Counted from the stretch's first letter, positions 7,483 through 40,574 are shown. The stretch is DNA of 64,000 bases from Phycisphaerae bacterium RAS1 (GCA_007859745.1 SMLU01000003.1:248001-312000), one strand, 5' to 3'. Numbers and translations are program-made. Notes: generated by a model from the letters alone, not told the origin.

Positions 7483-7555
7483 TCCGAGCCGCGACCGTGA
7501 GGGAGCGGGCTTTGATGATCAAGCGGCCACCGCTCCCTCACGGTCGCGGCTCGGA
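7483..7555. terminator. Family C long hairpin between convergent genes
   Basis: A 26-bp perfect inverted repeat (arm starts TCCGAGCCGCGACCGTGAGG) with a 20-bp spacer sits between murJ (ending 7464) and the convergent propeller gene (ending 7589). It could terminate both transcripts. It is also the cleanest copy of repeat family C. Confidence 0.7.
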
Positions 7556-7588: not shown

Positions 7589-9016
7589 CTACGGTGCGGC
7601 GATGCAGTACAAGTGGCCGCCGCCGCGCAGGTAGAGCTCTTTCCCGGCGATCGCCGGCGTGGCGTCGAAGCTGTCATCCAACGAGTTCATCGCCAAAATC
7701 TCGAAGCTCGCGCCGTGCTTGAGCACCGCGACCTTGCCGTCGCGGGCCGCGATGTAGACCCGTCCTGCCGCCCCGACGATCGACGCGTAGATATTCTGCA
7801 TGCCTTCCAGCCGCTCCGGCCCCCAGAGCTTCTCGCCGGTGCGGGCGTTCAGGCAGGTCACGAGCGCCCGGTTGTTGTCCAGGAAATACAGTTTGTCGTC
7901 GTAGAGCAGCGGCGACGGGACATAGGGCGTGTTCTTGTCGTAGGTCCACACGACCGCCGACTTGTTCTCGTCCAGATTCCCCCGCGCGTCGGCCAGGCGG
8001 ATCGCCTTCAACGCGGCGCCGCGGAAGCCGCTGATGAAGTAGACCAGGCCGTCGGCGTACACCGGCGTCGGGATGACGTTTTCCGTCAGGCCGCCGCATT
8101 CCCAAATGACCTCGCCGGTGGCCAGATCGTAGCTGCGGCAGCGCTTCGCACCGGGCGTAATCACCTGCGGCTTGCCGCCGGCGGAGACGATCAGCGGCGT
8201 CGACCAGGATGTCGGCTCGTCGCGTTTCTGGCGCCAGATTTCCTTGCCGCTCCTGCGGTCCAGCGCGACGATGAAGTCGTCCTCTTCGTGGTCCCAGGTA
8301 ATGACGACCGTGTCTCCGAACACCGCCGGCGAGGCTCCTTCCCCGAAGCTGTTGCGCGTCTTCATGTCGCCGAAATCGACGTCCCACTTCACATTGCCGT
8401 CGAGATCGAGGCAGTAGAGACCCTCTGAGCCAAAAAACGCGTACAGATACTCACCGTCAGTGACACATGAGGCGGACGCGAAGGTCGAATCCGGATGCGT
8501 GCCGGCGTGCGGAGTTTTTTCGCGAACCGCCGTTTCCCAGATGATCCTGCCATTCTCGCGATCGAGCGCCAGCACGGTGTAGCGATAAGGCGAGGTCGGT
8601 TTCTCGGCGCGCGGTCCGCCGGCGCGCGGACGGCGCGCGCGTTCCGCGCCCGGTTGAGAAGCGGGCGGGCCGTCCTGCGCCTGCGGCCCCCGAACGATAG
8701 TTGTTCCACTCGAGCTGTCCTCAAGTGGATCAGCAGCCGCGCCGGCCTGCTCAACCTTCACCGCCGTCAGCAGGTAGATGCGGTCGTTCCACACAATCGG
8801 AGATGCGTTGCCGCGGCCGGGGATGGGCGTCTTCCAGCGGATGTTCTTGCCGTCGGCCCACTCCGTCGGCGGATCGGCGTGCGGCGCCACGCCCGTCGCG
8901 CTGGGCCCGCGGAATTGCGGCCACTGCCGCGACGCATCAACCGGTTCGGCGGCATGTGCCGCGTGTACGAGCGCGAGAGCAAGACCGGCCACCGACAAGG
9001 GACAAACGTAGTTCAC
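7589..9016 (-). CDS. Secreted PQQ-like beta-propeller protein
   Basis: 475 residues from a GTG start at 9016, chosen because GGAG lies seven bases upstream and the signal peptide (CPLSVAGLALALVHAAHAA) then begins at once; the frame itself is open to 9247. The mature part begins with WPQFRGPSATGVA, typical of a large planctomycete family of secreted proteins with PQQ-like blades; repeated W...D/G..G...W blade motifs occur (VLALDRENGRIIWE, IVALDRRSGKEIWR, YDLATGEVIWE, LNARTGEKLWG). No PQQ-binding enzyme residues can be confirmed, so it is better called a BamB-like/PQQ-like propeller of unknown ligand, acting outside the cytoplasm. Confidence 0.88.
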   Translation of the reverse strand: MNYVCPLSVAGLALALVHAAHAAEPVDASRQWPQFRGPSATGVAPHADPPTEWADGKNIRWKTPIPGRGNASPIVWNDRIYLLTAVKVEQAGAAADPLEDSSSGTTIVRGPQAQDGPPASQPGAERARRPRAGGPRAEKPTSPYRYTVLALDRENGRIIWETAVREKTPHAGTHPDSTFASASCVTDGEYLYAFFGSEGLYCLDLDGNVKWDVDFGDMKTRNSFGEGASPAVFGDTVVITWDHEEDDFIVALDRRSGKEIWRQKRDEPTSWSTPLIVSAGGKPQVITPGAKRCRSYDLATGEVIWECGGLTENVIPTPVYADGLVYFISGFRGAALKAIRLADARGNLDENKSAVVWTYDKNTPYVPSPLLYDDKLYFLDNNRALVTCLNARTGEKLWGPERLEGMQNIYASIVGAAGRVYIAARDGKVAVLKHGASFEILAMNSLDDSFDATPAIAGKELYLRGGGHLYCIAAP

Positions 9017-32580: not shown

Positions 32581-32754
32581 TCAGCTCCCCAGGATCACGT
32601 CGACAAACGGATTAATGTCCAGCACCGTCACCGCCCCGTCTCCGTCAATGTCGCCGTTCAGAATGTCGCAATCGGGGAAAAAGGCGTGGTATGCCGCCGG
32701 GTTGATGATGGCCAGCACATACCAATTGGTGTCAAGCACGTTCACCTCCCTTAC
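32581..32754 (-). pseudogene. Headless dockerin-type C-terminus
   Basis: About 57 codons encode VREVNVLDTNWYVLAIINP, then PDCDILNGDIDGDG and VTVLDINPFVDVIL, i.e. one and a half dockerin-type Ca loops as at the ends of the proteins at 1392 and 58996. The upstream part is lost: the first loop begins abruptly at REVNVLD and within 90 bp comes tRNA-Arg. No start codon or signal peptide is available. It appears to be the remnant of a secreted dockerin protein gene. Confidence 0.65.
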
Positions 32755-34345
32755 CGCGCCGCCGGCTCGCGTCAGATTCGCGTCGCGCGTGCAATCTCGC
32801 GCGCTTCGGAGATAATCCGGAGAAGCCGCGTCGCGCGGCGCGATGCGCCCGTAGCTCAGCAGGATAGAGCAGCGGTTTCCTAAACCGCAGGTCGGAGGTT
32901 CGAATCCTCTCGGGCGCGTTTGAAGTTTCGTCCGCATTCTGTAGCGTTTTCCCCTTGTTTTTCAGGCTTTCCCGGCCGGTTGTCAATTCGCAATCGCGCT
33001 CGTTTTCGTCGCGCCGCGTCGCGCCAGAATGCACCGATTCGCGCCTCAACTGCTGGCAGTATTGCTGATAGCGCGCGTCGCCCGTTTTGGCGTCGTGCGC
33101 GTCGCCGATCGGCCGGTCATCCGTCCCGGTCCGCAGCGCCGCCGCTCGCTCCGATTCCGTCCGGTCGGGCGTCAGGGTCGGCAGTGCGTCCAAAGCGCCC
33201 GCCAGGTCATGCACGCCCAGCCGCGTGTACGTGTTCAACGTGAGCGACGGGTCGGAGTGCCGGGCGAGCGTCTGCGCGACTTTCACCGACGCCCCGCTCT
33301 TGACCAGCAGCGTGATGTAGCTCGTGCGCAGCCCGTGGAAGTCGGCCACGCGGCCCGCAGCGTCGTCCACACTCAGAAATTCGTCGTCGCGCCGTCGGCG
33401 TCGCTCGGCGCGGTTCGCCGTTTCGCGAATCCACGCGGCTTTTGCACGGCGCAGGTCCGAGCGGAACATTTCGGCCGTGCGCTCGGGCATCGACGCAAAA
33501 ACAGGCTCGGCGTCGGGTCGGTTGACAAGCCACGTGCGGAGCGCGTCCGCCAAGTCCCGGCGGATCGGCTGCCGATCCTCGCGCCGCCGCTTGGAGTTCG
33601 CCGCCTGTAGCACGATCGCCGGCGGGTCGTCGTCAATCTGAAAGCTCGCGGGCGTCAGGCTGCGCAACTCGCCGGCACGAAAGCCCGTGGACGCCGCAAC
33701 GAAATACAACCGCGCCCGATCCGGGCCGGACATTCCGTGCCACGTCGGCCCGGCTTCGGCCGCGGCAATCAGCCGGGCGAGTTCGTCGGCGTCCAGCGCC
33801 CGCCGCTCATAGCGCCGGTCGGCGTCGGCGTTGTAGCCGCTCAGGTGCGCCAGCGCGTCGGCCCGCGTGCGCCCGTCGCGAAACGCCCAGCGGCTGAATT
33901 GCTTGACGGCCCGCAGGTAGTGTTGCCGTGTCTGCGCGCTCGCCTGTAGCTCGCCGATCCGCGCTTGCACGTCCGACGCCGTGATATCCTGCAATCGCTC
34001 CACGCCCGCCAGCAGCGCGGCGACGCGCATCGTCAGCGTGGCGACTTGCTTGCCCGTCACGCCGCGCGATTCGAGCGACGCCCGCCAGTTGGCCAGGTGT
34101 TCGGCCAGCGGCCGGCGTCCCTCAGCGGTGTAGCGGTCGGTGCGCGCGTCAATCACGCCGTCGCGCCGCAACGCGGTATCGGCCACGTGCTTCGACAGGA
34201 TTCGCTCCGCCGCGGCCCGGTCGGTCGTGCGCGTGGATTTCTCACGGCGCTTGCCGTCCGCGCCGAACCAGCTCACGCGCCACGGTCCGCCGGTCGTGCG
34301 CTTGAACAGTGTCCCGCTTCCGCGGCTGCGCTGCCGTCGCGCCAT
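32732..34345 (-). CDS. int: Tyrosine integrase (integrated-state reading frame, foreign C-terminus)
   Basis: 537 codons from ATG 34345. SAM-like N-terminal core-binding domain about 75-165, catalytic domain 180-390 with Arg223 (TGFRAGE), Lys252, His337-x-x-Arg340 (FHGLR), His363 (LARH) and Tyr373 (NTYTRL). Residues 479-493 (ERIRTSDLRFRKPLL) are encoded by the attL core, ending exactly at its boundary (32867). The last 44 residues are read from the antisense of the tRNA 5' half and chromosomal DNA and are arginine-rich. At the other end of the element the same frame continues from the core for 104 codons (see 40206-40520). So the protein made from the prophage state differs at its C-terminus from that of the excised circle. 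Confidence 0.93.
   Translation of the reverse strand: MARRQRSRGSGTLFKRTTGGPWRVSWFGADGKRREKSTRTTDRAAAERILSKHVADTALRRDGVIDARTDRYTAEGRRPLAEHLANWRASLESRGVTGKQVATLTMRVAALLAGVERLQDITASDVQARIGELQASAQTRQHYLRAVKQFSRWAFRDGRTRADALAHLSGYNADADRRYERRALDADELARLIAAAEAGPTWHGMSGPDRARLYFVAASTGFRAGELRSLTPASFQIDDDPPAIVLQAANSKRRREDRQPIRRDLADALRTWLVNRPDAEPVFASMPERTAEMFRSDLRRAKAAWIRETANRAERRRRRDDEFLSVDDAAGRVADFHGLRTSYITLLVKSGASVKVAQTLARHSDPSLTLNTYTRLGVHDLAGALDALPTLTPDRTESERAAALRTGTDDRPIGDAHDAKTGDARYQQYCQQLRRESVHSGATRRDENERDCELTTGRESLKNKGKTLQNADETSNAPERIRTSDLRFRKPLLYPAELRAHRAARRGFSGLSPKRARLHARRESDASRRRGKGGERA
32845..32918 (+). tRNA. tRNA-Arg (anticodon CCT)
   Basis: Acceptor GCGCCCG/CGGGCGC, D-arm GCTC..GAGC, anticodon stem GCGGT/ACCGC with loop TTCCTAA (anticodon CCT), T-arm GGAGG-TTCGAAT-CCTCT, discriminator G. 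No CCA is encoded. The 3' part from 32867 on is one end of the 54-bp duplication that bounds the integrated element, so the element keeps the tRNA functional. A GATAAT sequence near 32807 could be its -10 box. Confidence 0.95.
32867..32920 (+). repeat. attL: 54-bp core direct repeat
   Basis: Begins GAGCAGCGGTTTCCTAAACC and ends CTCTCGGGCGCGTT; covers the D-stem end, anticodon arm, T-arm and acceptor 3' strand of tRNA-Arg. Compared with attR it differs at two positions, which pair with each other in the T-stem. Confidence 0.95.
33049..33074. repeat. Direct repeat near attL, possible arm-type integrase site
   Basis: ACTGCTGGCAGTATTGCTGA.. (26 bp) matches 24 of 26 bases at 40449-40474, in the same orientation. 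It lies 129 bp inside attL; the partner lies 46 bp inside attR, so in the circle they flank attP on both sides. Confidence 0.6.
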
Positions 34346-34348
34346 ACG

Positions 34349-34612
34349 TCACCGTACCTTTCGTCGGGTCGTGCCCGCGGCCTTGCGAGCCGCCGGCGTC
34401 GCGTTTCCGCCCGGCTTCACGCGGACCAGCCGGCATTCGACGCCGAGCGCCGCGCAGATACCGTCCGCCGTTTCGACCGTCACGCTTCGCATGTCGCGCA
34501 TGAAGCGGCCAATCTGTGCCTTGTCGCAGCCGGCCGCGTTCGCAATCGCGACCCACGTCCGGCCGTCCGCCTCAATCGCCCGTCGAAGCGCCATTGTCAT
34601 CGTCGCTTTCAT
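34349..34612 (-). CDS. Small XRE-like helix-turn-helix protein
   Basis: 87 residues. The region TWVAIANAAGCDKAQIGRFMRDM followed by VTVETADGICAALGVEC has the lambda-repressor-type helix-turn-helix layout (helices 2-3 with AGCDKAQIGRF). The C-terminal tail is basic. It ends three bases before the integrase start, so the two are probably co-translated, and it may control integrase or excision. No dimerisation or cleavage domain is present. Confidence 0.75.
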   Translation of the reverse strand: MKATMTMALRRAIEADGRTWVAIANAAGCDKAQIGRFMRDMRSVTVETADGICAALGVECRLVRVKPGGNATPAARKAAGTTRRKVR

Positions 34613-34643
34613 ACCTGATAGAGTAACACGGAATCCGCAGTTG

Positions 34644-36674
34644 TCAATTGTCGCTTTCGCTTTCCGCTCCCGGCTCGCCGCGCTCCAGGTCGATGATGCG
34701 GCCCGTCGCAGGATGCCAGCGCAGTTGAACCACGTTGCCCCGCGACGCCGCTCCGCTGAATCGCGTTTTGAGCGCCCGCAGCTTCACGATGCCCGTCGGC
34801 TCGCAGCCGCGGCCGTTGTCGGCTTGCTCGCTATCGACCGCGAAGACGTTTTGTGCGTCGTAGACGATCCGCCCCGCGCCGCGAACGTCGTCAAGAGAGA
34901 CCGGCGCTTTGTCATCGTCGCCTTTCTTGAAGTTTGCGGCTTTCCGCAGGTCCGCGACGGCCAGCAGCGCCAGATTGTGCGTCCGCGCGATCCGCCGCAA
35001 CGCCGCGGAGTTCGCACAATCGGCCGTGTACTCGCCAGCGTCATCGGCTTCGGCAGCCAGCAGCCCGATGTAATCGAGAATGAGAATCTTCCAGCCGAAG
35101 CGCTTCACGCCGTCGGCCACGACGTCGGCCAAGCGCGAGCGCGTCAGCGGCTCGCCCCAACGGTCATCGTCGCAAAGCGTGAGCGGGAGCCTTTCGAGTT
35201 CGGGCAGCGCGGATTGAAACCGTGCGCCGGGTTCGCCGTAGGCGCGGCCGTGCGTGAAAATGGATCGGTAAACGTCGGCCACGTTCGCCGCGATCAGGTG
35301 CGCGAGCTCGCGCCGTGACATTTCGAGCGACACGACGCCGACCGGCACGCCCGCGCGCGCCGCGTTCAACGCGACTTGCACCGCCGTTTGTGTTTTCGCG
35401 CGGCCCGTCTTGCCAACGAAAAGCGTCACGCCGCCGACGCGCAGCCCGCCGCCGAGCGCGTCGTCAAGCTCGCTGAATCCGGTCCGCACGTGTTCGACCG
35501 GCGTCCACGTCGCCGGGTCGTGAAGGATCGCGCCGAGCGTGAACGGCCGCCACGGGTCGCCGCGCTCATATGCCGCGTCAAGCTCCGCCGCGATTTCGGC
35601 CGGCTCTTTCCCGTCGCCGATCCGCTCCACGATCAGGTCGCCCACGTCTTTCAACCCGGCCGCCTTGCTCAATCCACAATCGACGATTCGCGCGTCGATG
35701 CCCGCGGCCGTGAGCGTTTCGAGCGACTTTGCCGCCCAGCGCCGCCCGGCGTCGTCGTCGTCGGCCACGATCGCCACGGGTCGGCCGTGGACAAGCTCGC
35801 CCAGCCCGTCGGGCAGGTCGGCCGATTCGCCGGCGGTAATTCCGATCGCGGCGCGCCCGCACGCCGCGACGGCCAGCGCTTTGAGTTCGCCAGGGCAAAG
35901 CCAAACCGGCCCGGCCGCGCCCAGCGCGACGGGAAACAGTTGCCGCGAGTTCACGCCGCGGGGCGTCCAGTAGCTTTTCGGGCCGTCGCCGTCCGGGTCG
36001 GCGCGATGCGCCTTGACGGCCACGACACGCCCGGCCGGGTCGGTCACGCCAAACGTCCAGTGCCGCGCGTCCACCGTCACGCCGACGCCGAAGCGCTCCG
36101 CCGTCGCCCGGTCGATGCCGCGTGTTGTGAAAAGCCGGTCCAGCGCCGCCGGGTCGCCTTGCAATCGGGTCGCGCAGCTCGCCGCCAGCGCCGCCGGGTC
36201 ATCCGCGACGCCCCGTCCGTTGCCGCGCACCGCGTCGTCATCGCGCCGCGTCGCGCCACGATGCGCCGTGTTCCGCGACGCGATTAGAGCCGCTTGGCGC
36301 GTTTCGGGGGTATCTCGGGTAGGGGCGCGGCCGTTTGCGCGGCGTGGCGCGGCGCTTCCGGGCGATTCTGGCGGGGCGTGGATTCCTAGCTCGGCGAGCG
36401 CGTCGCGAAAACCTATCCCGCGAGATCGCCGAATCACGTCGAACACGTCGCCGGTCCGCTTGTCGCCGTTCCACGTGCAAGCTTGGCACGTGAAGTACCA
36501 GCGGCCGCGGTGTTCGTGAATCCCGCCGCTCGCGTGCGCGTCGGCGTGAAACGGGCATTTGAGCGACGCCGTGCCGTTCACCGTCGCCCGGGCGTCGGTC
36601 AACACCTTGACCAGCGCGGCCCGGTCGGCCCGAATCGCGTCAAGCTTGGCGCGGTCGATGCGGGCCGCGGTCAC
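34644..36674 (-). CDS. CHC2 zinc-finger/TOPRIM primase fused to RecA-like (DnaB-type) helicase
   Basis: 676 residues. N-terminal zinc finger: Cys40-x-x-His43 and Cys63-x-x-Cys66 (CPFH, CQAC) with HEHRGRWYF between. TOPRIM at about 255-345 (GELKALAVA with Glu262; VADDDDAGRRWA, Asp304-307). Helicase from about 395: TGFSELDDALGGGL, Walker A GKTGRAKT (420-427), Walker B ILILDYIGLLA. This is the T7 gp4-like layout for replicating mobile DNA. It overlaps the winged-helix gene upstream by 4 bp (ATGA). Residues 137-150 (HRGATRRDDDAVR) resemble a stretch in the integrase. Confidence 0.93.
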   Translation of the reverse strand: MTAARIDRAKLDAIRADRAALVKVLTDARATVNGTASLKCPFHADAHASGGIHEHRGRWYFTCQACTWNGDKRTGDVFDVIRRSRGIGFRDALAELGIHAPPESPGSAAPRRANGRAPTRDTPETRQAALIASRNTAHRGATRRDDDAVRGNGRGVADDPAALAASCATRLQGDPAALDRLFTTRGIDRATAERFGVGVTVDARHWTFGVTDPAGRVVAVKAHRADPDGDGPKSYWTPRGVNSRQLFPVALGAAGPVWLCPGELKALAVAACGRAAIGITAGESADLPDGLGELVHGRPVAIVADDDDAGRRWAAKSLETLTAAGIDARIVDCGLSKAAGLKDVGDLIVERIGDGKEPAEIAAELDAAYERGDPWRPFTLGAILHDPATWTPVEHVRTGFSELDDALGGGLRVGGVTLFVGKTGRAKTQTAVQVALNAARAGVPVGVVSLEMSRRELAHLIAANVADVYRSIFTHGRAYGEPGARFQSALPELERLPLTLCDDDRWGEPLTRSRLADVVADGVKRFGWKILILDYIGLLAAEADDAGEYTADCANSAALRRIARTHNLALLAVADLRKAANFKKGDDDKAPVSLDDVRGAGRIVYDAQNVFAVDSEQADNGRGCEPTGIVKLRALKTRFSGAASRGNVVQLRWHPATGRIIDLERGEPGAESESDN

Positions 36675-37237
36675 GATGCACCGCCCTTCGCCCGATCGCC
36701 GGGTGTCTGACGGACAAGCTCGGCAATCGAAATCGTCGGCTCGCCCGGCTTCGGCTCTTCGTCCTCTACACGTGGCGCACGTGGCGCTTTTCCCGCGTGA
36801 GCGGCGGCGGGTGCCGTCGCCTCTTTCCGAGAGGCGGCGGCGGTCCCGCCTCTCTCTGTAAGAGAGTCTTGGGGCGTTGAACGCCCTTTACCCTTGGGGC
36901 GTTGAACGCCCTCTACGGCGCGTGCCCCCGTACGGGGCGTTGAACGCCCTCTACGGCGCAACGCGATTCGCAGCAGCGTCGCCGTCTGCCGCCCTCCGAC
37001 CTTGACCGGCACGTGAACGCGGTCAATCCAGCCCGCCGATTCCAGCAGCGTCAGCGCTGCGGATACGCTCTTGAAGTTCGCCCCGGATCGCTGCGAAAGC
37101 TCGTCGCGCGTCGGCGTCACGACGGCCGACTTCCGCTCTTCGGCCATGTCGGCCAGTGCGAACCAAACGGCCACGGCGCAGGGGCGGCGCTTGTAGACGG
37201 CCGCGAGCGTCATCACGTGTCGCCGCCGACGTTTCAT
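36671..37237 (-). CDS. Winged-helix protein, probable replication initiator or loader
   Basis: 188 residues. An N-terminal winged-helix domain at about 10-90 is seen: VWFALADMAEERKSAVVTPT, DELSQRSGANFKSVSAALTL, LESAGWIDRV, then the wing. The C-terminal half is low-complexity, basic and proline/alanine-rich. The linker coding region holds three copies of a 15-bp palindrome. Position directly before the primase-helicase, with ATGA overlap, suggests it recognises the element's origin, like other small winged-helix initiators. No catalytic motif. Confidence 0.7.
   Translation of the reverse strand: MKRRRRHVMTLAAVYKRRPCAVAVWFALADMAEERKSAVVTPTRDELSQRSGANFKSVSAALTLLESAGWIDRVHVPVKVGGRQTATLLRIALRRRGRSTPRTGARAVEGVQRPKGKGRSTPQDSLTERGGTAAASRKEATAPAAAHAGKAPRAPRVEDEEPKPGEPTISIAELVRQTPGDRAKGGAS
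36872..36949. repeat. Three iteron-like palindromes, candidate replication origin
   Basis: GGGCGTTGAACGCCC occurs exactly at 36872-36886, 36897-36911 and 36935-36949; copies 2 and 3 share the flank CTCTACGGCG. A further palindrome CTCTCTCTGTAAGAGAG lies just before at about 36850. The array is inside the winged-helix gene. Confidence 0.7.
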
Positions 37238-37425
37238 CGGTCCGCCCCCTCTTGCTTGTCGGCTTGCTTGCGAAGCGTGCGGACGCGCACCGCTCGCAGC
37301 CCGAAGTTGCGAAGTAGTCGCTTGAGCGCGACGCGCAGCCGATACACTGGATCGCGACCGAAAACATCGACGCCCGCCGGCTCGGCTCGGAGTTCCAAGA
37401 GAAAATCAGGGCCGCGCCGTTTCAT
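37234..37425 (-). CDS. Small basic protein of the element
   Basis: 63 residues from ATG 37425. Sequence features: GPDFLLELRAEP, then VYRLRVALKRLLRNFGLRAVRV; strongly basic. Small proteins with an R..LK..LR..GLR.. core are common in planctomycete integrative elements, without known function. It overlaps its downstream neighbour by 4 bp (ATGA) and its upstream neighbour likewise. Confidence 0.65.
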   Translation of the reverse strand: MKRRGPDFLLELRAEPAGVDVFGRDPVYRLRVALKRLLRNFGLRAVRVRTLRKQADKQEGADR

Positions 37426-37610
37426 CCGCCGCCCCCGATCCGCGCGAACAGCGCGACGCACGCTTCGCAGAAGCGAAGCGGCAAGTCGTATGCCGCCAGG
37501 TCGCGCCAGCGCCGCCAGCGCCCGCAGACACCGCAGCGGAAATCGCGCGGCTTGCGGCGCGCCTTGAAGCGCGCGGCGCAACGCGGTATGCTAGGAAAGC
37601 TCGAAAGCAT
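37422..37610 (-). CDS. Small zinc-ribbon-like protein
   Basis: 62 residues from ATG 37610. Two Cys pairs, FRCGVCGRW and RFCEACVALF, are spaced as in a zinc ribbon; the N-terminus is basic. The start is uncertain because no clear ribosome site exists. It overlaps the next gene by 4 bp. Possibly DNA-binding. Confidence 0.6.
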   Translation of the reverse strand: MLSSFPSIPRCAARFKARRKPRDFRCGVCGRWRRWRDLAAYDLPLRFCEACVALFARIGGGG

Positions 37611-37654
37611 TGATTCTCTCGATCGCGCCCCGCTCGCAACGGGGCGTTTCGTTT

Positions 37655-37885
37655 TCACCGGCCGCGCGCCGCCTGCCGCTCCAGGAAGTCGCGCAGCTCG
37701 TCCACGCGGTAGCGCACGGCGCGGCCGATCCGAACGCACCGGATCGCGCCGCAGTTCGTGAGTTCCCACAATTTCCGAACGCCGATTCCGAGCGCTTCGG
37801 CCGCCTCGCGCGGTCGCAGCGCAAGCCGCGGCGTCGCGTCGGGTTCGGGCGGGAGCGAAGCGAGGCGTGCGTTATCGGTTCGCAT
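37655..37885 (-). CDS. AlpA/excisionase-type helix-turn-helix protein
   Basis: 76 residues from ATG 37885. LALRPREAAEALGIGVRKLWELTNCG then IRCVRIGRAVRYRVDELRDFLE is the classic MerR-like HTH_17 fold of excisionases and AlpA regulators. Such proteins bend DNA at attachment sites or turn on integrase expression. Overlaps the preceding gene by 14 bp. Confidence 0.85.
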   Translation of the reverse strand: MRTDNARLASLPPEPDATPRLALRPREAAEALGIGVRKLWELTNCGAIRCVRIGRAVRYRVDELRDFLERQAARGR

Positions 37886-38066
37886 CGGCCGCCCCCTTCT
37901 CCGCCATTCCCGTGGCGGATGCGGCGTCAAGCGCGCGTCGGCGTGCCTGCCGCCGCGCCACGCGGAGCATCGCTTTCAGTTCGTCGGCCCGCGCAAGCGT
38001 CCGATCAAGCTCGCGCTCAATGTCGGCGGGAGCCGGAAGGTTCGGAAGTCGAATGTTGCGTTTCAT
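37872..38066 (-). CDS. Small coiled hypothetical protein
   Basis: 64 residues from ATG 38066. IERELDRTLARADELKAMLRVARRQARRR predicts one long charged helix. No family is recognised, but its tight overlap with the AlpA-like gene supports its being real. Confidence 0.6.
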   Translation of the reverse strand: MKRNIRLPNLPAPADIERELDRTLARADELKAMLRVARRQARRRALDAASATGMAEKGAADANR

Positions 38067-38150
38067 GCCCCCTTTGTAGACAGGTCCGCCGCCGGTGTCA
38101 TATGGCAAACAATGTCAGAGTATGGCAGAGAATGTCAGGTGTAGCGCGTG

Positions 38151-38657
38151 CTACAGTTCGATGCGATACCCTTCGCGCCCGCCCTTGCGCGATGGTCGCT
38201 TGACAAGCTCCTGAATCGGCTTCGGCAAGCGCTTATAGATTCGGTCGGGCCGTTCCATCTTCCCGGCCAGTACATTCGCGAGCATGGGCTTTCCATTGCG
38301 TTCAAGCAGGGCTTGCAGAAACTTCCCATCGTCCGTGCCGCGGAGCGAAAATCGCTTGCCGTCCAGAATTGCAATCGCCCCGTCGCCGTCGGCTTCGACG
38401 CACAGCCGCGGCGCTTTGCCGGGCGCTGCGGCGGGAAGCGGAGTCGCAGCATCGGCCACGCGCAAGATAGCATCTTCGACTTCACGTTGTCGTTTGGCTT
38501 TCGCGGCGTTCATGGCGTCGATTCTGTCGCAAATGTCCGCAGCTTCAGCTATCTGCCGGGCGTGGGTCGCGCGAATGGTATCCGCCAGCCCGTTTGTCCC
38601 TTGTGGTAGCTGCTCTCGAATGAATGCTTGCAGGTCGTCAAACGTGAAATCTGGCAT
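38151..38657 (-). CDS. Hypothetical protein with winged-helix-like C-terminus
   Basis: 168 residues from ATG 38657. N-terminal helical part (DDLQAFIREQLPQGTNGLAD), alanine-rich linker, and a C-terminal domain (LDGKRFSLRGTDDGKFLQAL, then MERPDRIYKRLPKPIQELV, ending KGGREGYRIEL) that looks like a small winged helix. No named family. Ribosome site weak. Confidence 0.6.
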   Translation of the reverse strand: MPDFTFDDLQAFIREQLPQGTNGLADTIRATHARQIAEAADICDRIDAMNAAKAKRQREVEDAILRVADAATPLPAAAPGKAPRLCVEADGDGAIAILDGKRFSLRGTDDGKFLQALLERNGKPMLANVLAGKMERPDRIYKRLPKPIQELVKRPSRKGGREGYRIEL

Positions 38658-38789
38658 GATGCACCATCTAATCGGGATGCCGCACAACGCGACGCGGCCA
38701 ATGGTGCAAAGCCGCGCGCGTCGTGCCGCTCGGCGGGCAATTACTCCGCCGATCCCGATGCCGCGATGCTACTGCGGTACGCCCCGCGG

Positions 38790-39437
38790 TCAAGCCGAAT
38801 CTGGCTTCCCCCGCTGCGCCTCGCGCGCTCCCTCTTCCCGTCGCCAGCGTACGAAATCGTCCGCGTCGTTGTCCTGAATCGCGTCAAGCGCGACACGATC
38901 CATTTGTGCCCGTTCGGCGTCGGCCGCTCTTGGCGGTTGCTCCGATTCCCACTGCCTACGTTCGTCGAACGTCGCTGGTCGTGCCTTGCCGGTTGCGAGC
39001 GTTTCGCTGCAGCGCGTGCAGCGTATTTCGCGCGGCCCAGCGGCGAAGACTTGCGCCTGTCCGCAAACCGGGCAGAACAACACGACGATCGTTCCTGCGG
39101 TCGGCGGCGCGGCCGCCCGCGGGATAGGCCGTGTCCGTGAAGCGGGTGGAGCCGGCGCGCTTGCACGCTCGCGAAGTGCATCAAGCTCGCTCGCAACTCT
39201 GCCCGATGCGGGTGAAAGCGGCGCGCCGATTTCGCGAGGATACGCGGGCGGCGGAGCGGTTAGGCTCCAAACCAGCGCGACAACCCAGCCGACAAACGAC
39301 CATCCAAGCAGCAGATTCAGCGCAAATATCGCCGTCGTGTTGTAGTGGTTTCGGTGGACCGCGACGATTGTCGGCAAGAAGTAGACGAACAACCCGATGA
39401 TAACGAGTGCGCAGCCGAACAGGCCGAGCATTTCCAC
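38790..39437 (-). CDS. Superinfection-immunity (T4 Imm-like) membrane protein with zinc ribbon
   Basis: 215 residues from GTG 39437, favoured by GGAG eight bases upstream (ATG 39431 is possible). Residues 1-62 carry two membrane helices: LFGCALVIIGLFVYFLPTIV, the loop HRNHYNTTAIFALNLLLG, and WSFVGWVVALVWSL. This matches the Imm_superinfect family, which includes T4 Imm, a protein that blocks entry of further phage DNA. Then a linker, a zinc-ribbon-like CPVCGQ..CTRC at about 122-143, and an acidic C-terminal tail. In this element it is the best candidate for a host-benefit or anti-competitor gene. Confidence 0.8.
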   Translation of the reverse strand: MEMLGLFGCALVIIGLFVYFLPTIVAVHRNHYNTTAIFALNLLLGWSFVGWVVALVWSLTAPPPAYPREIGAPLSPASGRVASELDALRERASAPAPPASRTRPIPRAAAPPTAGTIVVLFCPVCGQAQVFAAGPREIRCTRCSETLATGKARPATFDERRQWESEQPPRAADAERAQMDRVALDAIQDNDADDFVRWRREEGAREAQRGKPDSA

Positions 39438-39524
39438 GGCAGTCGCTCCACGGGAGTGCCAACGTCCGATTCGCGGTGCGACGGAGATGCTTTGCGCGCC
39501 GCAAGAATCACGACAAACGTCATT

Positions 39525-39863
39525 CTACGATTCTGATCGCCCGGAAGGAAGCGCATCGTCCGATGGTGCGGTCGCTTCGCGCTCGCGCCGCATCGTTTCC
39601 AGCCGGCGCATCCCCGCATCGTCCCCGTCGAGGAATGCCGCAATGACGGCTTCGCGCGGCAGTCCCACAAATGGCGATGGGCTGTCCGGGAATGCCGATT
39701 CGACTCGCTCCGCCCCCAGCGACGCCGCCCCGACCGTCCGCAGCGTCATGTCGGCCAGCATTGCGGCAAGCTCGCGGCGTGCTTCGGGTGAGTCTGCGCG
39801 CCCGCTCCGCTCGCGTGCGGTCAGCTTGGCGTCAAGCCGCGTCAGTCGATTGTGCACGGTCAT
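39525..39863 (-). CDS. Hypothetical protein of the element
   Basis: 112 residues from ATG 39863. Starts VHNRLTRLDAKLTARE, a helical segment, and ends in a polar low-complexity tail. It overlaps the end of the DUF5681-like gene by 32 bp. No family recognised. Confidence 0.6.
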   Translation of the reverse strand: MTVHNRLTRLDAKLTARERSGRADSPEARRELAAMLADMTLRTVGAASLGAERVESAFPDSPSPFVGLPREAVIAAFLDGDDAGMRRLETMRREREATAPSDDALPSGRSES

Positions 39864-40209
39864 GCGTGATGCTCCCGTCCAGTGCGGCCGCCCGCGCTTC
39901 GAGCGATTCCAGGCGTTCAATCAGGTCCGCTTCGACCGGACGCCCCAACGTGTATCCCAGCAGCACGCGAGCCGCCAGCGTGTCGCCTTCGCGTGCCTTG
40001 GCAACTAGCCCCTTCGCAATCGCCCGAATGTCGCGCACAGTGACGGCTTCAATCAGCGCCGCCCGCAGCTTGGCAACGGCCGGCCCGAGCGGATTCCCCG
40101 GTCCGCCCGGATTGCCCGTCGCGAACCGCCCGCGCCCGTCGCGTCCGCCCCCACTAACCGGGCCAACCGCGCCCCCGCCGTCATCGCCGTTTGTTGACGG
40201 TGCGGTCAT
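39832..40209 (-). CDS. DUF5681-like protein
   Basis: 125 residues from ATG 40209. GRDGRGRFATGNPGGPGNP is the DUF5681 signature (GRF..GN.GGPGNP), followed by a helical part LRAALIEAVTVRDIRAIAKG and GDTLAARVLLGYTLGRP. Related proteins lie near small terminase genes in phages and in integrative elements. Its start overlaps the stop of the integrase tail (ATGA), which means the tail is a genuine upstream cistron in the circle. Confidence 0.75.
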   Translation of the reverse strand: MTAPSTNGDDGGGAVGPVSGGGRDGRGRFATGNPGGPGNPLGPAVAKLRAALIEAVTVRDIRAIAKGLVAKAREGDTLAARVLLGYTLGRPVEADLIERLESLEARAAALDGSITHDRAQSTDAA

Positions 40210-40520
40210 CGGTCCCTCTTGCCCGTCACGTCGCCGGCCCCCGCCGCCCGGATCAGCGCCAGGGCAGCCGCTCGAATCGCCGCCGGCAGCGTCGGCCACG
40301 CCCGCGCCACTTCGGCAAGCTCCGGGTCGGTCGGCGTCCGGTCGGCAAGCTCCCGGTCTTCGGGCGTCGGGCCGGCGTTTGTCGGCGTCCGGTTCGGGGC
40401 GTCGGAGCCGCTCCGGGGCGCGTGGGGAATTGCTGATTCCGGGCGCGTACTGCTGGCACTACTGCTGATAGCGCCGCCGGGCGTGTTGTAAGTGTTGTCC
40501 GCAGCGTCGCTTGCGGAATC
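40206..40520 (-). pseudogene. int: Detached integrase C-terminal tail
   Basis: 104 codons in the frame that runs out of the attR core: DSASDAADNTYNTPGG.., a Pro/Thr/Ser-rich linker and a terminal helical module ELAEVARAWPTLPAAIRAAALALIRAA. Such a W..LP..IR..ILA.. end is common on planctomycete integrases. The first codon begins exactly at the core boundary (40520) and the stop overlaps the next gene by ATGA. Joined through the core to residues 1-493 of the integrase it would make a 597-residue protein. In the integrated state there is no start or promoter in front of it except whatever reads across attR. Confidence 0.8.
40449..40474. repeat. Direct repeat near attR, possible arm-type integrase site
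   Basis: ACTGCTGGCACTACTGCTGA.., 24/26 identical to 33049-33074 and in the same orientation, 46 bp from the attR core. Confidence 0.6.
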
Positions 40521-40574
40521 GAGCAGCGGTTTCCTAAACCGCAGGTCGTAGGTTCGAATCCTATCGGGCGCGTT
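40521..40574 (+). repeat. attR: 54-bp core direct repeat (partial tRNA-Arg)
   Basis: Same sequence as attL except G to T and C to A in the T-arm (GTAGG..CCTAT). It lacks the acceptor 5' strand and the D-arm 5' half, so it is not a tRNA gene. Confidence 0.95.

Follow-up and report, generated by a model that had tools for sequence, protein, structure and literature searches.

The stretch of DNA analyzed here, hereafter the window, comprises 64,000 nt of Phycisphaerae bacterium RAS1 (GCA_007859745.1, SMLU01000003.1:248001-312000), with positions counted from its first letter. It contains a mobile element of 7,654 bp seated in a transfer RNA gene, tRNA-Arg(CCT). The tyrosine integrase gene (int) of this element runs through the left attachment site (attL), and a second open frame, encoding a conserved C-terminal tail, leaves the right one (attR). 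We propose that both are halves of a single gene that, in the free element, would span the attachment site attP. The features on which this reading draws are:

32844-32919, + strand: tRNA-Arg(CCT), the target gene, rebuilt at attL (ARAGORN)
32867-32894, strand-less: attL core, exact 28 nt
40521-40548, strand-less: attR core, exact 28 nt; the displaced 3' half of the tRNA comes next
32867-34345, - strand: element-encoded part of the integrase, 493 codons, ending at the attL core boundary (Pfam PF00589 2.2e-15, residues 183-376; PHROG integrase 8.7e-34)
33218-33799, - strand: tyrosine recombinase catalytic domain (PF00589, residues 183-376)
32732-32866, - strand: host-derived C-terminus of 44 codons in the integrated state
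40206-40520, - strand: tail-side frame from attR, 104 codons, in frame with int at any core crossover
40224-40340, - strand: conserved two-helix tail module (DPELAEVARAWPTLPAAIRAAALALIRAA), W..LP..IR type
33049-33074: putative arm-type repeat on the P side, located within int, ACTGCTGGCA-GTATTGCTGATAGCGC (permutation test)
40449-40474: putative arm-type repeat on the P' side, located within the tail-side frame; matches its P-side counterpart at 92% identity (permutation test)

The integrase belongs to the tyrosine recombinases (phage integrases), scoring above the PF00589 cut-off and carrying the R..HxxR..H..Y residues, and the catalytic columns R210, H337, R340, H363, and Y373 are invariant in 16 relatives. 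Its ORF (open reading frame; 34345-32732, - strand) stays open through the attL core. Both 28-nt cores are part of a 63-nt direct repeat (92% identity, offset 7,654), and across the whole 5.5-Mb genome the core occurs in just these two copies. At the other end, the tail-side frame closes with a stop codon at 40206-40208 that overlaps the following gene as ATGA. Joining the two frames in silico yields an identical frame of 597 residues whichever core position is taken as the crossover. A preliminary description of this DNA had proposed the same integrase, attL, and attR coordinates, a longer protein encoded by the circle, and the ATGA overlap, and our analysis agrees with it on all of these. 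It had further described the 44 residues that take the tail's place in the integrated state as antisense tRNA; the replacement holds, but the composition does not, as just ~8 residues represent antisense tRNA outside the core (32844-32866) and the others host flank beyond the tRNA. A TG motif (within ATGT/RTGT) lies ~33 residues past the catalytic tyrosine (residues 406-407, window ~33125-33130) and is near-invariant in the 16 relatives (G407 invariant, T406 at least 90%). Directly past the exact 28-nt block, the T-stem carries mismatches G/T and C/A as a paired change (32895 and 32909 versus 40549 and 40563). Because these mismatches start right after the block, the crossover lies in or before it. 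The compensatory difference between the element-supplied and the displaced host tRNA half suggests an origin of the element from a host with another tRNA-Arg allele.

The in-frame relationship extends to other elements. Integrase and tail halves were paired by a direct repeat, with a core of ≥18 nt, between the DNA upstream of a tail and the DNA downstream of a catalytic domain, irrespective of frame. Of 40 such pairs, 38 join in frame, comprising 21/21 of those begun from tails and 17/19 of those begun from integrases; one in-frame join (L114) involves a divergent tail missed by our profile. With the per-pair chance of frame agreement set conservatively at 0.43, this outcome has a probability of ~3e-12, an approximate value given that a few elements are related. 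The tRNA does not dictate the frame, a possibility that we ruled out: across 33 elements, each of the three antisense frames of the tRNA is used (by 17, 6, and 6 elements), and 4 elements read it in sense. The same explanation is rejected because two tandem elements at one tRNA (L082+L138 and L068, on G231:C18) use different core frames, each matching its own tail. Among 80 integrase relatives from GTDB that were checked for a tRNA at the end of the frame, 68 run into it, and a stop ahead of a detected tRNA was never encountered; no tRNA was found for the remaining 12, several of which lie at contig ends. The preliminary description had named homologous integrases ending naturally ahead of the core as a finding that would contradict its proposal, and no such integrase was detected in this set.

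The attR frame might instead be a small gene of its own or an open frame unrelated to int, and in high-G+C DNA long open frames do occur in every reading frame of both strands. The 38/40 in-frame joins, the unsplit viral ORFs described below, and the lack of start codons in many tails all speak against such a coincidence. Between core and motif, no in-frame ATG, GTG, or TTG occurs in 12 of 33 tails, and 26 of 33 have no ATG. In the 12 tails without a start codon, the tail is therefore producible only within a longer frame, which makes a separate tail gene unlikely. The comparative data refute a coincidental open frame, and we give this alternative almost no weight.

The tail, for which the preliminary description had claimed a conserved W..LP..IR..AL module, proved to be conserved in relatives as well. 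A single-sequence search with 39 residues matched 48 of the 294 genomes examined in the phylum; with a profile built from 35 tails, 255 of the 397 genomes in the class gave a match, representing 188 of 275 genera. The module is common to two integrase families, and four such tails, along with several elements, are present in the genome of RAS1 itself. Judged from these sequences, the observation is much more general than first proposed. To place the tails, we examined 400 nt upstream of the 57 tail loci with sufficient flank, together with two control stretches of equal length. A tRNA T-arm motif was present upstream of 49/57 tails compared with 7/57 in each control stretch; the tail therefore typically lies at attR, directly behind the displaced tRNA piece. 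The motif falls in the tail's own open frame in 47 of these 49 loci, and at least five of the 8 loci lacking it show tRNA-derived peptides by eye. In two related elements (L108 and L109), the segment after the core differs with a nonsynonymous divergence (dN) of 0.063 and a synonymous divergence (dS) of 0.216. The tail varies at its extreme C-terminus, and its conserved portion is a hairpin that contains W. Collections of phage and plasmid records contained no relative of the joined protein, and the tail gave chance matches only. Five relatives from IMG/VR (L143-L147) are without the tail, ending 0-43 residues past the catalytic domain. One viral contig with an integrase tail at its attR end carries a type II hammerhead ribozyme (L315:5198-5261; Rfam RF02276, 54 bits).

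Unsplit genes were also found. Two IMG/VR contigs (L312 and L317) contain a single intact ORF of 492 codons comprising integrase, linker, antisense tRNA core (GGAGTGGGATTCGAACC), linker, and tail. To judge from reading the translations, the neighbors of this ORF are a primase-like gene at one end and phage genes of portal- and head-like type at the opposite end. The integrase of these contigs represents the second family, for which three chromosomal pairs, one of them in the genome of RAS1, are likewise in frame. In another case (L245), a first-family integrase and the tail share one ORF with no tRNA nearby. Four further whole contigs with unsplit genes (G473:C250, G636:C289, G599:C25, and G415:C161) were considered as free circles but do not prove them, as none has overlapping ends and int is broken in the first two. 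Partly decayed unsplit copies were left out as proof.

Repeats flank the core on both sides within the coding sequence. In the window, a 26-bp repeat pair occupies these positions in the joined frame. For each of the 33 elements, the P-side coding stretch was scored for its best match to the P'-side one, with mispaired sides serving as controls. True pairs reached a mean score of 15.8 compared with 7.3 for the mispaired controls, and 27/33 elements exceeded 98% of controls (p<0.02). The repeats are element-specific, and many consist of tandem units of ~11-12 bp; in L317, GGCGCA occurs at 7495, 7507, 7518, and 7530 and again at 7714 and 7726, with the core at 7655. As the repeats flank the core within the coding sequence, the whole attP would lie inside the gene. 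They look like integrase arm-type sites, to which the integrase would presumably bind.

AlphaFold modeled the unsplit protein of L245 (70-row alignment) with a mean predicted local distance difference test (pLDDT) of 84 and a confident integrase part. Residues 402-464 are disordered (pLDDT <50), followed by a two-helix hairpin at 466-491 (helices 466-477 and 480-491, pLDDT ~85). The segment predicted to be disordered is the counterpart of the one encoding attP in other elements. Foldseek matches are tyrosine recombinases, including Brujita Int, lambda Int (1z1b, E 9.5e-10), and Tn1549 Int. An alternative account would be that spanning attP is merely compact, letting attP travel with the integrase, while the tail has a housekeeping task, for instance in stability or in coupling to the following gene, and both enzyme forms are equally active. 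Relatives do persist integrated with the tail cut off, and the tail stop is coupled to the downstream gene in 12 of 33 elements (ATGA in 8, TGATG or TAATG in 4 more). ATGA coupling is nevertheless absent from most elements, and protein-level conservation of the tail across the phylum and two integrase families, together with its predicted fold, is more than coupling needs. We regard this account as unlikely, though deserving of some weight.

Our preferred reading is that the gene spans attP, that the tail is lost on integration, and that the hairpin is a module for the integrative reaction; we consider this the best overall explanation, with a probability of about 80%. The gene anatomy, the in-frame joining, the unsplit viral copies, the tail conservation, and the repeats on both sides of the core in the coding sequence were established at the sequence level. 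According to this reading, attP, consisting of P-side arm repeats, tRNA core, and P'-side arm repeats, would be embedded in the 3' third of a tyrosine-integrase gene. The free element would carry one ORF encoding arm-binding and catalytic domains, a disordered linker doubling as attP, and a C-terminal two-helix hairpin. Integration into the tRNA gene would split this ORF within the core, and excision would restore the full gene. In the integrated element, the catalytic part stands whole at attL, ending in a few dozen residues supplied by the host, and the tail lies at attR without its start. The hairpin may be an assembly or regulatory module, probably making protein-protein contacts in the Int complex and serving the circle-to-chromosome reaction. 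Enzyme made from the free element would then be integration-proficient, whereas tail-less enzyme made from the prophage may be biased against re-integration or depend on Xis for excision. Several observations weigh against this reading. One out-of-frame pair (L103) retains the tail with int frameshifted just before the core, and the other (L118) has int broken by stops and no tail found. The contigs L312 and L317 are identical across 26.3 kb and overlap without forming a closed circle; their interpretation as circular permutations was ruled out, as they are overlapping fragments. In several other unsplit copies (L282, L291), int is broken, and these could represent relics or hybrids of tandem arrays.

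The remaining genes of the element are:

34349-34612, - strand: HTH_3 (helix-turn-helix) repressor-like gene, intact after integration (PF01381 1.6e-5)
34644-36674, - strand: primase-helicase (DnaB_C 3.4e-19; PHROG DNA primase/helicase 1.4e-47)
36671-37237, - strand: replication-initiation O-like winged-helix protein (phrog_391 3.9e-5)
37655-37930, - strand: excisionase-like (Xis-like) HTH_17 protein (HTH_17 1.8e-10; TIGR01764 'excise' 1.7e-7)
38790-39437, - strand: superinfection-immunity-like protein (PF14373 1.7e-18; phrog_1039 9.5e-23)
39832-40209, - strand: DUF5681-like gene, next after the tail and overlapping its stop by ATGA (PF18932 E 0.002, below cut-off)

The element genes searched included none for a capsid, and the element looks like a phage satellite or a small integrative element. 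The O-like replication gene contains GGGGCGTTGAACGCCC(TCTACGGCGC) in three near-identical copies at 36871-36959, each with a short palindrome; these are possibly iterons or the replication origin of the element.

The Myxococcus phage Mx8 and archaeal SSV provide the accepted examples of an integrase reaching across attP (PMC4383910). The planctomycete architecture is Mx8-like: in both systems the frame crosses the attP core into a C-terminal segment that is lost on integration while the catalytic domain stays whole. IntP/Int of Mx8 (and Mx9) shares with the planctomycete genes an attP within the int coding sequence and a recombinant 3' end upon integration, and an antisense-tRNA-like core is readable in the Mx8 protein (STGLEPVLLGSF). 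The Mx8 tail has no significant match to the planctomycete tail profile (score -0.1) and is not homologous by this measure. Moreover, Mx8 is a single phage from another phylum, whereas the planctomycete module is shared across Planctomycetota and two integrase families. Lambda-type integrases resemble the window integrase in catalytic fold and in direct arm-like repeats flanking the core, but lambda attP lies outside int, whereas the planctomycete arm-like repeats and core are coding sequence.

In archaeal SSV, the recombination site also lies in the integrase gene, which is partitioned on integration (PMC8371274). Loss of the tail might accordingly inactivate the enzyme, making integration 'suicidal' in the manner of SSV-type integrases (PMC8371274), with excision carried out by the integrase of another element; the four tails and several elements in the RAS1 genome would be compatible with such help. 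SSV, however, parts an N-terminal portion from the catalytic domain, while the planctomycete element loses linker and tail only: its catalytic domain is wholly on the attL side, and no match to PF16795 was obtained. The element also encodes an Xis-like protein, and the Mx8 integrase is changed yet not inactivated by integration, remaining active after replacement of its 3' end, and is described as a molecular switch (PMC6070905). We find suicidal integration doubtful.

Integration-dependent immunity in the mycobacteriophages BPs and Brujita offers another comparison, as attP lies in an ORF whose product is altered by integration (cited in PMC10865867). By the same logic, the tail could be a degradation tag or inhibitor acting only in the free element, so that integration stabilizes the enzyme, as summarized there for mycobacteriophage repressors. 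The split gene in those phages is the repressor, whereas in the window element it is the integrase, with the core in int and the HTH gene (34349-34612) away from it. A variable extreme C-terminus and a conserved W-containing hairpin are also unlike a short tag, and we judge this alternative improbable. The new aspects of the planctomycete arrangement are the conserved tail, its phylum-wide spread, and the fully embedded attP; an attP-spanning integrase gene itself was known from Mx8 and SSV. A literature search, with most subscription journals outside its coverage, found no paper on such planctomycete integrases.

A 2021 review considered self-disrupting integrases exclusive to Archaea (PMC8371274). 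This view is contradicted by Mx8, already a bacterial case, and now by the planctomycetes, a large bacterial phylum in which attP-containing integrase genes with a shared tail module are the norm for one integrase family. The arrangement explains two kinds of planctomycete frames, integrases ending in antisense tRNA and orphan attR frames (GLEP.. or RTRTCDP.., then W..LP..IR), as the halves of one gene, and pairing these halves marks exact element ends. Planctomycete elements may share a dedicated integration-state switch, with attP lying entirely in a disordered integrase linker, in which the tail, made by the free element only, acts as a self-deleting directionality or assembly factor for distinct integrase families across the phylum, a proposal for which we see the odds as evenly balanced. 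The finding opens a testable route to direction control by tyrosine integrases.

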